Shown here: one piece after another, positions 56,825-59,568 of the stretch
How the letters are laid out: each line of letters begins with the position of its first letter
Position numbering within the stretch: position 1 is the first letter of the stretch
Assembly (NCBI RefSeq): GCF_024346355.1
Contig: NZ_JAGQCU010000002.1
Location: 1-64,000, forward strand
DNA length: 64,000 nucleotides
Direction of reading: 5' to 3'
Source: Cyanobium sp. ATX 6A2
GTDB taxonomy: Bacteria; Cyanobacteriota; Cyanobacteriia; PCC-6307; Cyanobiaceae
Notes under the pieces: model-generated
The model's input: only the letters and a program-made list of their open reading frames with translations
What the model was told of the DNA's origin: nothing
The model's database searches: none
Program-made: the position numbers and the translations under genes

Positions 56825-57943
56825 TTGCCCCTGCTCCAATCCCTGCGGCGTCTGGGCTTGGGACCCGGCAGCGCCCAGCCCACCCTGCAGGACTGGCCAG
56901 GGCTGATCGAGGCCTACCGGCGCTGGCTGCCGGTGAGCGAGCGCACGCCGGTGATCAGCCTGCGGGAGGGGGCCACACCGCTGATCCCAGCCCCCTCGAT
57001 CGAGGCACGGGTGGGCAACCGGGTGCGGGTGCTGCTCAAGTACGACGGCCTCAACCCCACCGGCTCGTTCAAGGACCGGGGCATGACCATGGCCATCTCC
57101 AAGGCCCGGGAGGCGGGCTCGGAGGCGGTGATCTGCGCCAGCACCGGGAACACCTCGGCCGCCGCCGCCGCCTACGCCAGGCGCGGCGGGATGCGGGCCT
57201 TCGTGCTGATCCCCGACGGCTACGTGGCCCAGGGCAAACTGGCCCAGGCCCTGCTCTACGGCGCCGAGGTGATCGCCATCCAGGGCAATTTCGACCGCGC
57301 CCTGGCGATCGTGCAGGAGGTGGCTGAGCTCTATCCGGTGACCCTGGTGAACTCGGTGAACCCCTACCGGTTGCAGGGGCAGAAAACCGCCGCCTTCGAG
57401 GTGGTGGACGCCCTCGGCGAAGCGCCCGACTGGCTCTGCATCCCGGTGGGCAACGCCGGCAACATCAGCGCCTACTGGATGGGTTTCAACGAGTACCGCG
57501 ACGCCGGTCACTGCCGCACGGTGCCGCGCATGATGGGCTTCCAGGCGGCCGGTTCGGCGCCTCTGGTGCTGGGCCACACGGTGGAGCAACCCGACACCAT
57601 CGCCACAGCCATCCGCATCGGCAACCCGGTGAACCGGGACAAGGCCCTGGCCGTGCGCAGCGAGAGCGGCGGCGATTTCACCGCCGTCACCGACGCCGAG
57701 ATTCTGGACGCCTACAAGATGCTCGGCAGCCAGGAGGGGGTGTTCTGTGAGCCGGCGAGCGCCGCCTCGGTGGCGGGGCTGCTCAAGCGCCGGCAGGAGG
57801 TGCCGGCGGGAGCCACGGTGGTGTGCGTGCTCACGGGCAACGGCCTCAAGGACCCCACCACCGCCATCGAGCACAACGAGGCCCGCTTTCACACCGGCCT
57901 GGAGGCCGACACCGCCAAGGTGGCCCAGGTGATGGGCTTCTGA
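56825..57943 (+). CDS. thrC: threonine synthase
   Basis: ThrC converts O-phosphohomoserine to threonine with PLP. The 372-residue protein has the PLP-lysine motif NPTGSFKDRGM, STGNTSAAAAAYA, VGNAGNISAYWMGF and CEPASAASVAGLL. The likely start is TTG 56825. A terminator follows at 58011, and dnaN lies downstream. Confidence 0.95.
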   Translation: MPLLQSLRRLGLGPGSAQPTLQDWPGLIEAYRRWLPVSERTPVISLREGATPLIPAPSIEARVGNRVRVLLKYDGLNPTGSFKDRGMTMAISKAREAGSEAVICASTGNTSAAAAAYARRGGMRAFVLIPDGYVAQGKLAQALLYGAEVIAIQGNFDRALAIVQEVAELYPVTLVNSVNPYRLQGQKTAAFEVVDALGEAPDWLCIPVGNAGNISAYWMGFNEYRDAGHCRTVPRMMGFQAAGSAPLVLGHTVEQPDTIATAIRIGNPVNRDKALAVRSESGGDFTAVTDAEILDAYKMLGSQEGVFCEPASAASVAGLLKRRQEVPAGATVVCVLTGNGLKDPTTAIEHNEARFHTGLEADTAKVAQVMGF

Positions 57944-58010
57944 GGCCCCAGCCGGCAACGCTGGCACCCCCGGCACTCGCACCGCCACCCCCCATCCGCC
58001 AATGCGCCTC

Positions 58011-58031
58011 AGCCCAGCGGGGGCTTTTTTT
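58011..58031 (+). terminator. intrinsic terminator of thrC
   Basis: A stem agccc/gggct with a five-base loop (58011-58025) is followed by six more T, 68 bases past the thrC stop. This is a plausible rho-independent terminator, although the stem is short. Confidence 0.65.
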
Positions 58032-58431
58032 GGCCTGCAGGACCCGTGTGCCAATCAACAAGGCGGTTGAAAATGGTCGTGGAAAAGGGTGACGGAATCG
58101 GGGGAAATCGGAGGGCGTGGTGATGGCCCTGGCGAGCCATCGGATTCCCCAGGCCCGGGAAAGCGGGGAAAACCCGGCGATCTCCCCATTCCGAGTCGGA
58201 GATTCCGCAGCATCCAACCGCCAACATCCCAGAGCCACCAGCGCTGGTGGCTCATTTTCCCCGCTTTCCGCAGGCCCTATTACGACGGATTGATTGGTTT
58301 TAAGTTCAATCCTTCTCAATCCGTAGACGGGCGCACAACAGCGGATGTCCGGCGTTGCGCAATCAGCCGGCCTGTGGAAGCGTGGGAGCCCTTCAGCCCA
58401 GCGGCCCGCGTCCGGCCTGAACCCCCCTCCC
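58032..58431. other. gene-free region before dnaN, candidate oriC
   Basis: The only gap above 300 bases in the window has no convincing ORF or tRNA. It is more AT-rich than the flanking genes. It holds a 15-bp inverted repeat (58158-58172 / 58255-58269) enclosing a perfect 22-nt palindrome. A near-match to the cyanobacterial DnaA box TTTTCCACA lies at 58078-58086 (cgtggaaaa, 8 of 9), with weaker matches at 58065, 58164 and 58255. The position directly before dnaN matches that of oriC in Synechococcus elongatus and the genome start of marine picocyanobacteria. Origin function is inferred. Confidence 0.45.
58158..58269. repeat. 15-bp inverted repeat enclosing further hairpins
   Basis: The arms ggaaagcggggaaaa (58158-58172) and ttttccccgctttcc (58255-58269) are perfectly complementary. 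Between them, atctcc (58180-58185) can pair with ggagat (58198-58203), and gagccaccagc (58232-58242) with gctggtggctc (58243-58253). Transcribed, this would fold as a three-way junction. It may be a small structured RNA, a terminator complex, or an origin-associated cruciform. Confidence 0.55.
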
Positions 58432-59568
58432 ATGAAGCTGGTCTGCTCCCAGTCGGAACTCAGCGCCAGCCTGCAGCTGGTGAGCCGGGCCGTTGCCGCG
58501 CGTCCCACCCACCCGGTGCTCGCCAACGTGCTGCTCACCGCCGATGCCGGCACCGGCCGCCTCAGCCTCACCGGGTTCGATCTCAGCCTCGGCATCCAGA
58601 CCAGCCTTCCGGCCGAGGTGGAGACCAGCGGTGCCATCACCCTGCCGGCCCGGCTGTTCGGCGAGATCGTCACCCGCCTGTCGGCCGACAGCCCCATCGG
58701 CCTGCACTGCCCTGAGGGCACGGAGCAGGTGGAGCTCACCTCCCTCTCCGGCTCCTACCAGATGCGGGGCATGGCCGCTGAGGACTTCCCCGATCTGCCC
58801 CTGGTGCAGACCGGCCAGCCCATCCGCCTGGAGGCCGAGGCCCTGGTGAAGGGCCTGCGGGCCACCCTGTTCGCCAGCAGTGGCGACGAGGCCAAGCAGC
58901 TGCTCACCGGCGTGCACCTGAGGCTGGAGGGAGCGGGCCTGGAATGCGCCGCAACCGACGGCCACCGCCTGGCCGTGCTGCGGCTGGCCCAGGGGGTGGA
59001 GGCGAGCGAGCAGGAGCCGTTTGCGGTCACCGTGCCGGCCCGTTCCCTGCGCGAACTGGAGCGGCTGCTGTCGGGCCGCCAGTCCAGCGAGCCCCTGAGC
59101 CTGTTCTGTGATCGTGGCCAGGTGGTGTTCCTGTGGGCCGACCAGGTGCTTACCAGCCGCAGCCTCGATGGCACCTACCCCAACTACAGCCAGCTCATCC
59201 CCGAGAGCTTCAGCCGGGGCATCAGCCTCGATCGCCGCGCTCTGGTGTCTGCCCTGGAGCGGGTGGCCGTGCTTGCCGATCAGCACAACAACGTGATCAA
59301 GCTCAGCACCGAGGCCGGCAGCGGTCAGCTGCAGGTGCAGGCCGACGCCCAGGATGTGGGCAGTGGATCGGAGTCTGTGGCCGCGGAGATCAGCGGGGAG
59401 CCCATCCAGATCGCCTTCAACGTGCGTTACCTGCTCGATGGCCTCAAGGCCATGGGCTGCGAGCAGGTGATGCTGCACTGCAATGCCCCCACCACCCCAG
59501 CCGTGCTCAAGCCCCTGGATGACTCCGACTTCACCTACCTGGTGATGCCGGTGCAGATCCGCGTCTGA
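58432..59568 (+). CDS. dnaN: DNA polymerase III beta subunit (sliding clamp)
   Basis: The 378-residue clamp begins MKLVCSQSELSASLQLVSRAVAARPTHPVLANVLL and contains ATDGHRLAVLRL, DGTYPNYSQLIPESF and the C-terminal FNVRYLLDGLKAMG... YLVMPVQIRV. The three clamp domains are complete. It starts the conserved dnaN-purL-purF group. ATG 58432 fits the usual N-terminus. Confidence 0.97.
   Translation: MKLVCSQSELSASLQLVSRAVAARPTHPVLANVLLTADAGTGRLSLTGFDLSLGIQTSLPAEVETSGAITLPARLFGEIVTRLSADSPIGLHCPEGTEQVELTSLSGSYQMRGMAAEDFPDLPLVQTGQPIRLEAEALVKGLRATLFASSGDEAKQLLTGVHLRLEGAGLECAATDGHRLAVLRLAQGVEASEQEPFAVTVPARSLRELERLLSGRQSSEPLSLFCDRGQVVFLWADQVLTSRSLDGTYPNYSQLIPESFSRGISLDRRALVSALERVAVLADQHNNVIKLSTEAGSGQLQVQADAQDVGSGSESVAAEISGEPIQIAFNVRYLLDGLKAMGCEQVMLHCNAPTTPAVLKPLDDSDFTYLVMPVQIRV

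Follow-up and report, generated by a model that had tools for sequence, protein, structure and literature searches.

The 488-nt spacer between thrC and dnaN of Cyanobium sp. ATX 6A2 is in all likelihood the chromosomal replication origin (oriC), a reading made from its sequence and those of its relatives. An origin at this place had been proposed in a preliminary description of the same DNA, and the proposal is now supported by the layout of a putative unwinding module, a cluster of DnaA-box-like sites, an adjoining unstable stretch, synteny, the GC skew of relatives and the loss of the box array in G037, the one well-assembled relative in which no DnaA was detected. The spacer lies in a window of 64,000 nt (the whole stretch of DNA that was analysed), which is part of contig C12 (249,879 bp) of a 3.0-Mb draft genome; judged by DnaN, it stands closest to named metagenome-assembled genomes of Cyanobium (92% identity), in a collection search that may have left out the genome itself. 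The long gap before dnaN noticed earlier is present between thrC and dnaN, its 3' end abutting the dnaN ATG at 58432, in the gene order thrC, spacer, dnaN, unnamed ORF, purL. The NCBIfam cut-offs were exceeded by thrC, dnaN and purL.

56825-57943, plus strand: thrC (threonine synthase), upstream neighbour; ORF, NCBIfam TIGR00260, 320.5 bits against a cut-off of 167.1
57944-58431, no strand: proposed oriC region, the thrC-dnaN spacer; DnaA-box PWM matches
58432-59568, plus strand: dnaN (DNA polymerase III beta clamp); ORF, NCBIfam TIGR00663, 346.1 bits against a cut-off of 137.65

The arrangement is widely kept: 77 of 80 named relatives have a co-directional thrC ahead of dnaN (distance 363-1797 nt, median 442), and in the remaining three the contig breaks off 471-788 nt before dnaN. 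A GC-rich repeat followed by a T run after thrC, at 58007-58034, is probably the thrC terminator, as judged by eye and from similar sequence in relatives. Elsewhere in the window, between 43000 and 46000, GC content drops to about 57-60% as against about 70% in the surroundings.

That a dnaN-adjacent origin is known in S. elongatus, as stated in the preliminary description, is confirmed by the account in PMC7198777, where the S. elongatus oriC is placed near dnaN, at a skew shift point, and binds DnaA. The Ori-Finder/DoriC predictions for cyanobacteria also have dnaN flanking, as here; PMC4674748 gives dnaN on one side of the predicted oriC in 55 of 68 cyanobacteria. The Cyanobium spacer resembles the oriC of S. 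elongatus PCC 7942 in its position near dnaN and is likely a dnaN-linked origin of the kind already known in cyanobacteria. It departs from the published description of PCC 7942 in its boxes, since the S. elongatus consensus is quoted as TTTTCCACA in PMC4674748 and the spacer holds no perfect copy of it, its boxes reading TTTTCCCCG, CTTTCCGCA and similar. A literature search on the thrC-dnaN region together with Prochlorococcus found nothing.

The preliminary description had also reported a perfect 15-bp inverted repeat, which is indeed present at 58158-58172 and 58255-58269 with arms 82 nt apart; a repeat of at least 15 bp arose in none of 500 dinucleotide shuffles of the spacer. The right arm together with three further bases reads as TTTTCCCCG and CTTTCCGCA, directly adjoining 9-mers that both resemble cyanobacterial DnaA boxes. 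It is this right arm with the trio and unstable stretch, and not the 8/9 DnaA box singled out earlier, that is the key element of the spacer.

58255-58263, plus strand: unwinding-module DnaA box 1, TTTTCCCCG, opens the right arm; motif, PWM
58264-58272, plus strand: unwinding-module DnaA box 2, CTTTCCGCA, abuts box 1; motif, PWM
58273-58276, plus strand: 4-nt GC-rich gap GGCC between box 2 and the trio; motif
58277-58288, plus strand: DnaA-trio-like element CTA TTA CGA CGG (complement 3'-GAT AAT GCT GCC-5'); motif
58279-58330, no strand: probable DNA unwinding element, overlapping the end of the trio; computed stability, right end set by eye

The dnaN start codon follows the module at a distance of 144-177 nt. 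Computed stability puts a probable unwinding element next to the boxes: scanned in 5-nt steps, the spacer is least stable in the 45-mer beginning at 58279, on their trio side, and only 0.2% of positions on the 250-kb contig are as unstable. With the basal unwinding system (BUS) of Bacillus subtilis and many other bacteria, as it is described in PMC8287927, the module shares tandem boxes (published as no more than 3 nt apart), a 4-nt gap to the trios (published as about 4 nt; here boxes and gap span 58255-58276), a first trio of 3'-GAT-5' and adjacent unstable DNA, and the spacing of 13 nt between box 1 and the trios falls inside the published peak of 10-13. The difference lies in the trios. 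The rule given in PMC8287927 requires three or more trios whose central base is A (3'-NAN-5'), no further than 16 nt from a box, whereas the trio-like element here consists of two consensus trios followed by two eroded ones, so that CTA TTA CGA keep the central A in two of three, and no other register works. The module would act like a BUS, yet it is not classed as one under the published three-trio rule. A degenerate form of the tandem pattern occurred once in the whole 3.0-Mb genome (control 0). Among 30 relatives it was met in 12, once each (control 0), and 11 of these 12 matches lie just before dnaN, the exception being G035.

The putative mechanism of opening is modelled on S. elongatus, whose DnaA, according to PMC8287927, unwinds scaffolds with cognate boxes and trios in vitro, both being needed. 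DnaA, encoded on another contig, would load on the box array and be oriented by the box pair at 58255-58272; the DnaA filament would then extend onto the trio strand at 58277-58288, after which 58279-58330 would melt and the helicase load.

Upstream of the module the spacer carries further DnaA-box-like sites.

58078-58086, minus strand: DnaA-box-like site TTTTCCACG (8/9 box); PWM, mismatch count
58143-58151, plus strand: DnaA-box-like site GATTCCCCA; PWM, with the TCCNC letters identical in 10/10 genus sequences
58155-58172, minus strand: reversed abutting DnaA-box pair TTTTCCCCG and CTTTCCCGG, containing the left arm 58158-58172; genus alignment, PWM (first box)
58180-58188, plus strand: weak DnaA-box-like site ATCTCCCCA; alignment, PWM
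58201-58209, plus strand: DnaA-box-like site GATTCCGCA; alignment, PWM

The 8/9 box of the preliminary description, TTTTCCACG, is the sole spacer site within one mismatch of TTTTCCACA, and at least one such site was seen in 17 of 200 shuffles; no spacer site lies within one mismatch of TTATCCACA. The weaker boxes mentioned alongside it were borne out more strongly, with six sites within two mismatches of TTTTCCACA where 1.27 were expected and six reached in 0/200 shuffles. Using a DnaA-box PWM trained on 59 other genomes, close relatives included and the Cyanobium genome itself excluded, 12 matches (some overlapping) were found in the spacer against 0.6 expected. The scan covered the organism's own 249,879-bp contig, on which the densest 300-nt windows for PWM matches are those of the spacer, so that on this contig the box cluster is denser than the rest; the next box-dense place, at 166.8 kb, has 8 matches per 300 nt and 40% GC. 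A PWM made from box 2 alone was too strict (one match in the spacer, 13 on the contig), and the combined PWM was used in its place. The contig region at about 166.7-167.2 kb, outside the window, is an AT-rich island of 40% GC, compared with mostly about 70% in the window, and is possibly foreign DNA. Within the left arm, the first box matches the PWM and has a GGAAAA core identical in 10/10 genus sequences, while the second does not match the PWM and keeps its GGAAA core in 8/10.

The inverted repeat had been described as enclosing two hairpins, one of them a perfect 22-nt palindrome, in a single three-way fold. The palindrome is present.

58232-58253, no strand: perfect 22-nt palindrome GAGCCACCAGCGCTGGTGGCTC; sequence

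A palindrome of at least this length was seen in 1 of 500 dinucleotide shuffles of the spacer, and no second copy was found among the genome matches listed. Folding 58150-58330 as single-stranded DNA (z -5.93) also gave the second inner hairpin. These elements invite the alternative that transcription across the spacer yields a structured small RNA, as had been suggested earlier, or a dnaN mRNA with a long 5' leader, and folding of 266 nt as RNA gave z scores of -1.95 on the plus strand and -3.93 on the minus strand. The arms, perfectly complementary here, are also paired in the RNAalifold consensus of 10 genus sequences, in which 63.0% of arm cells are paired as against 40.9-49.1% in slid controls. 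The excess over the slid controls is, however, what conserved box cores would produce, and the arms pair in the consensus because these cores are invariant while the variable positions mismatch. Complementarity between left and right arm ranges from 9 to 15 of 15 pairs across the 10 sequences, and the pair-breaking positions are mostly box position 7 and the junction. Letter shuffles reached as many paired cells in 112 of 500 cases (61.7% on average against 63.0%) and as much covariation in 192 of 500. The covariation analysis called for in the preliminary description gave no compensatory change in the stem beyond that of shuffles, with 12 arm pairs changed on both sides compared with a shuffle mean of 11.8; covariation was not above the slid controls either, and the RNAalifold covariation term was unfavourable (+1.89). 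In nine other genus sequences the palindrome keeps 0-5 of 9 pairs and the third helix 0-7 of 9, with 46.7% and 48.9% of cells paired, respectively. An Rfam search of the window gave nothing at gathering score; the region's four matches at E 0.29-1.8, to mir-3150 (twice), GHRLOS and PYLIS_2, were far under the gathering scores and were set aside as chance. Since relatives have mismatches in the arms outside the box cores and do not keep the inner palindrome, an RNA fold is not supported, and neither the single enclosed fold nor the undescribed small RNA was upheld; we regard a small RNA or leader as very improbable.

The inverted repeat is most plausibly two DnaA-box pairs facing opposite ways, whose full match in this genome is fortuitous; it exists because a second box pair sits upstream in reverse orientation. 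It would serve as a double-stranded DnaA-binding array and not as an RNA stem. Conservation of the arms in related thrC-dnaN spacers, which had been proposed as a check, was found for the box cores and not for the other arm positions, which mismatch.

To follow the module through the family, up to 650 nt before dnaN were collected from 77 genomes, namely 70 of the 108 with a dnaN match (30 as loci, 40 fetched) and seven more genus members, with five duplicate loci removed; the 38 left out include records starting just before dnaN, split dnaN matches and extra members of sampled genera. One box with the start of the trio, TTCCNCA-N1-5-CTA, was found on the dnaN-facing strand of 61 of the 77 spacers, compared with 1/77 on the other strand and a mean of 0.65 (maximum 2) in 20 shuffles. 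The gap from box 2 to CTA was 4 nt in all 61 chosen matches, with 1 to 5 allowed; the count uses the match nearest dnaN, a choice which favours it, as 4 of the 61 genomes have a second match further upstream. With both boxes in the pattern, 38/77 spacers matched in the strict form and 50/77 in a looser one, against none on the other strand and none in shuffles. Box 2 is variable at position 7 (A16 C20 G5 T19 in the 60 with full context) and has T at position 2 in 51/60, its other core letters being fixed by the pattern. In the trio, position 4 is C in 59, and positions 7 and 10, which lie outside the pattern, are C in 61/61, giving a period of three.

The TTCCNCA-CTA motif was absent from 16 of the 77 family spacers and its N4 form from 46 of the 80 named ones, many misses showing near variants by eye such as TTCCCCCA and TTTTCCCCC. 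A relaxed box and trio form was present in 65/77 family and 69/80 named spacers (the sets overlap), with two matches in each set on the other strand and shuffle means of 1.0 and 0.8. A still looser motif (relax2) also hit the other strand in 25/77 and 31/80 spacers and was for that reason not used. Three central-A trios were met in all 21 low-GC motif genomes (below 0.45), in 1/5 of middle GC and in 5/35 of high GC (0.55 or more), so failure of the three-trio rule is typical of GC-rich members. Similarly, at least one perfect TTTTCCACA box in the 650 nt before dnaN was found in 19/25 genomes with GC below 0.5 and in 3/40 with GC of 0.58 or more, a count which leaves out 12 family genomes of intermediate GC. 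By these counts, GC-rich members have eroded boxes and trios with the box-gap-trio geometry held fixed.

GC skew along the window and along the organism's own contig was uninformative. The contig showed no minimum at the spacer; its cumulative minimum is near 21 kb, and left and right did not differ (p 0.38). In relatives, skew was sampled in single-contig genomes as 20 or 40 stretches of 20 kb, which do not amount to whole profiles. For G050, a low-GC genome, skew to the right minus that to the left of dnaN was +0.069 (0/2000 permutations as high; rank test 0.017); the skew switches sign in the interval from -70 kb to +14 kb around dnaN, and the best split is 66 kb away. G007, from the genus of the window, gave +0.022 (one-sided permutation p 0.006, rank test 0.0066, 40 stretches) with the best split about 70-140 kb from dnaN; its first 20 stretches had given a two-sided rank test p of 0.076 and a best split at 3,075-3,175 kb. 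In G011, also of this genus, the difference of +0.015 was not significant (permutation p 0.061, rank test 0.16). The skew score at dnaA was negative in all three of these relatives, and 5 to 7.5% of positions in the sampled relatives score as high as dnaN. Skew in the three single-contig relatives thus fits dnaN better than dnaA, significantly so in two. A GC-skew minimum elsewhere, together with unconserved arms, had been named beforehand as evidence against an origin here; the origin reading was not refuted in this way, as the skew of three relatives favours dnaN, the own contig being flat, and the box cores of the arms are conserved. The records of the single-contig or nearly closed relatives G035, G050, G063, G069, G093, G100 and G111 were deposited starting at or near dnaA (contig C1) or just before dnaN. 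Record start points were considered as origin support and dropped, as several begin just before dnaN and others at or near dnaA. Rotation of family records to dnaA may misplace the origin, because dnaN fits the skew better where tested.

Just before dnaN there is a further conserved block.

58353-58385, plus strand: conserved block CGTTGCGC...CTGTGGAAGCGTGG, probably the dnaN promoter; relatives' alignment

The block, TTGCGC...CTGTGGAAGCGTGG, is nearly invariant within the genus, and a TTGC-...-TGTGGAA-like block no more than 150 nt from dnaN was found in 80/80 named and 62/77 family genomes. Its second part reads TGTGAAA or TATGAAA in a minority of the wider family, and for this reason TGTGGAAGC, considered as a DnaA box, was dropped; from the alignment, 58353-58385 is probably a dnaN promoter rather than a DnaA box. 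The block also lends itself to another explanation, in which the spacer does no more than serve as the dnaN promoter region, autoregulated through its DnaA boxes, and replication begins at another place, at several, or without DnaA. The flat skew of the own contig would agree with this, and some cyanobacteria do replicate without DnaA-oriC according to PMC7198777. However, the box-gap-trio module points at an unstable stretch, which a promoter would not need, and the skew favours dnaN over dnaA in 3/3 relatives. The same paper describes V-shaped skew in most species of its clades C-G, to which Cyanobium may or may not belong. On balance we give the promoter-only explanation scarcely any weight against that of an origin.

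The Cyanobium genome has one DnaA-family match over the cut-off, on another contig (dnaA at L083 1468-2889), and this DnaA aligns end to end with residues 20-465 of the DnaA of 8btg, which we take to be that of B. subtilis. A DnaA-family match was found in 108/121 family genomes, and among the 76 of them with completeness of 90% or more and contamination of 5% or less, 75 have DnaA. In G037 (95% complete, 20 contigs), no DnaA was detected by the family search, with the Cyanobium DnaA as query or by a separate search. Its dnaN lies at G037:C1:734292-735440 with thrC still its neighbour, and the spacer between them is 150 nt long, the next shortest being 337 nt among 74 genomes measured. This spacer has no TTYCCNC core on either strand, compared with at least two in the other 76 of 77, and no trio-like element; the promoter-like block before dnaN remains, as judged by eye. 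G037 is possibly a lineage that lost DnaA-dependent initiation, and would look like a joint loss of the initiator and its binding array, in one draft genome whose dnaA could be unassembled given its completeness and 20 contigs. Such a joint loss would also fit DnaA-box autoregulation. Repeated weak DnaA-family matches of identical score and frame length in G111 (at least 11) and G035 look like the AAA+ ATPase of a multi-copy element.

With respect to how DnaA reads the box, PMC5742627 reports that a major-groove helix recognises the 3' portion of the box, and that the T435M variant binds the box defectively. At the residue aligned with E. coli T435 (motif GGKDHxTV), Ser is found in the Cyanobium DnaA and in 11 other GC-rich relatives and Thr in 18, among 30 read (L258-L286), a split confounded with GC content and shared descent. 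G065, G099 and G110, which have Thr and higher GC, also have C at box position 7. A wider scheme, which we offer tentatively and consider rather unlikely, is that GC-rich Cyanobium-side picocyanobacteria use a worn-down unwinding module, with boxes unconstrained at position 7, trios in which only alternating units remain CTA (CTA CGA CTA CGG) and fixed geometry, that is tied to a DnaA with T435 changed to Ser and hence a shifted DnaA-DNA code, one lineage of the family having dropped DnaA and the array together.

These data place a probable origin in GC-rich picocyanobacteria of the Cyanobium type, where consensus box searches find almost nothing and skew is weak. TTYCCNC boxes in tandem, followed by 4 nt and CTA, would provide a simple anchor for locating the origin in relatives, and the gradual wear of boxes and trios as GC rises, together with G037, would form a natural series on which to ask which bases of the module DnaA needs.
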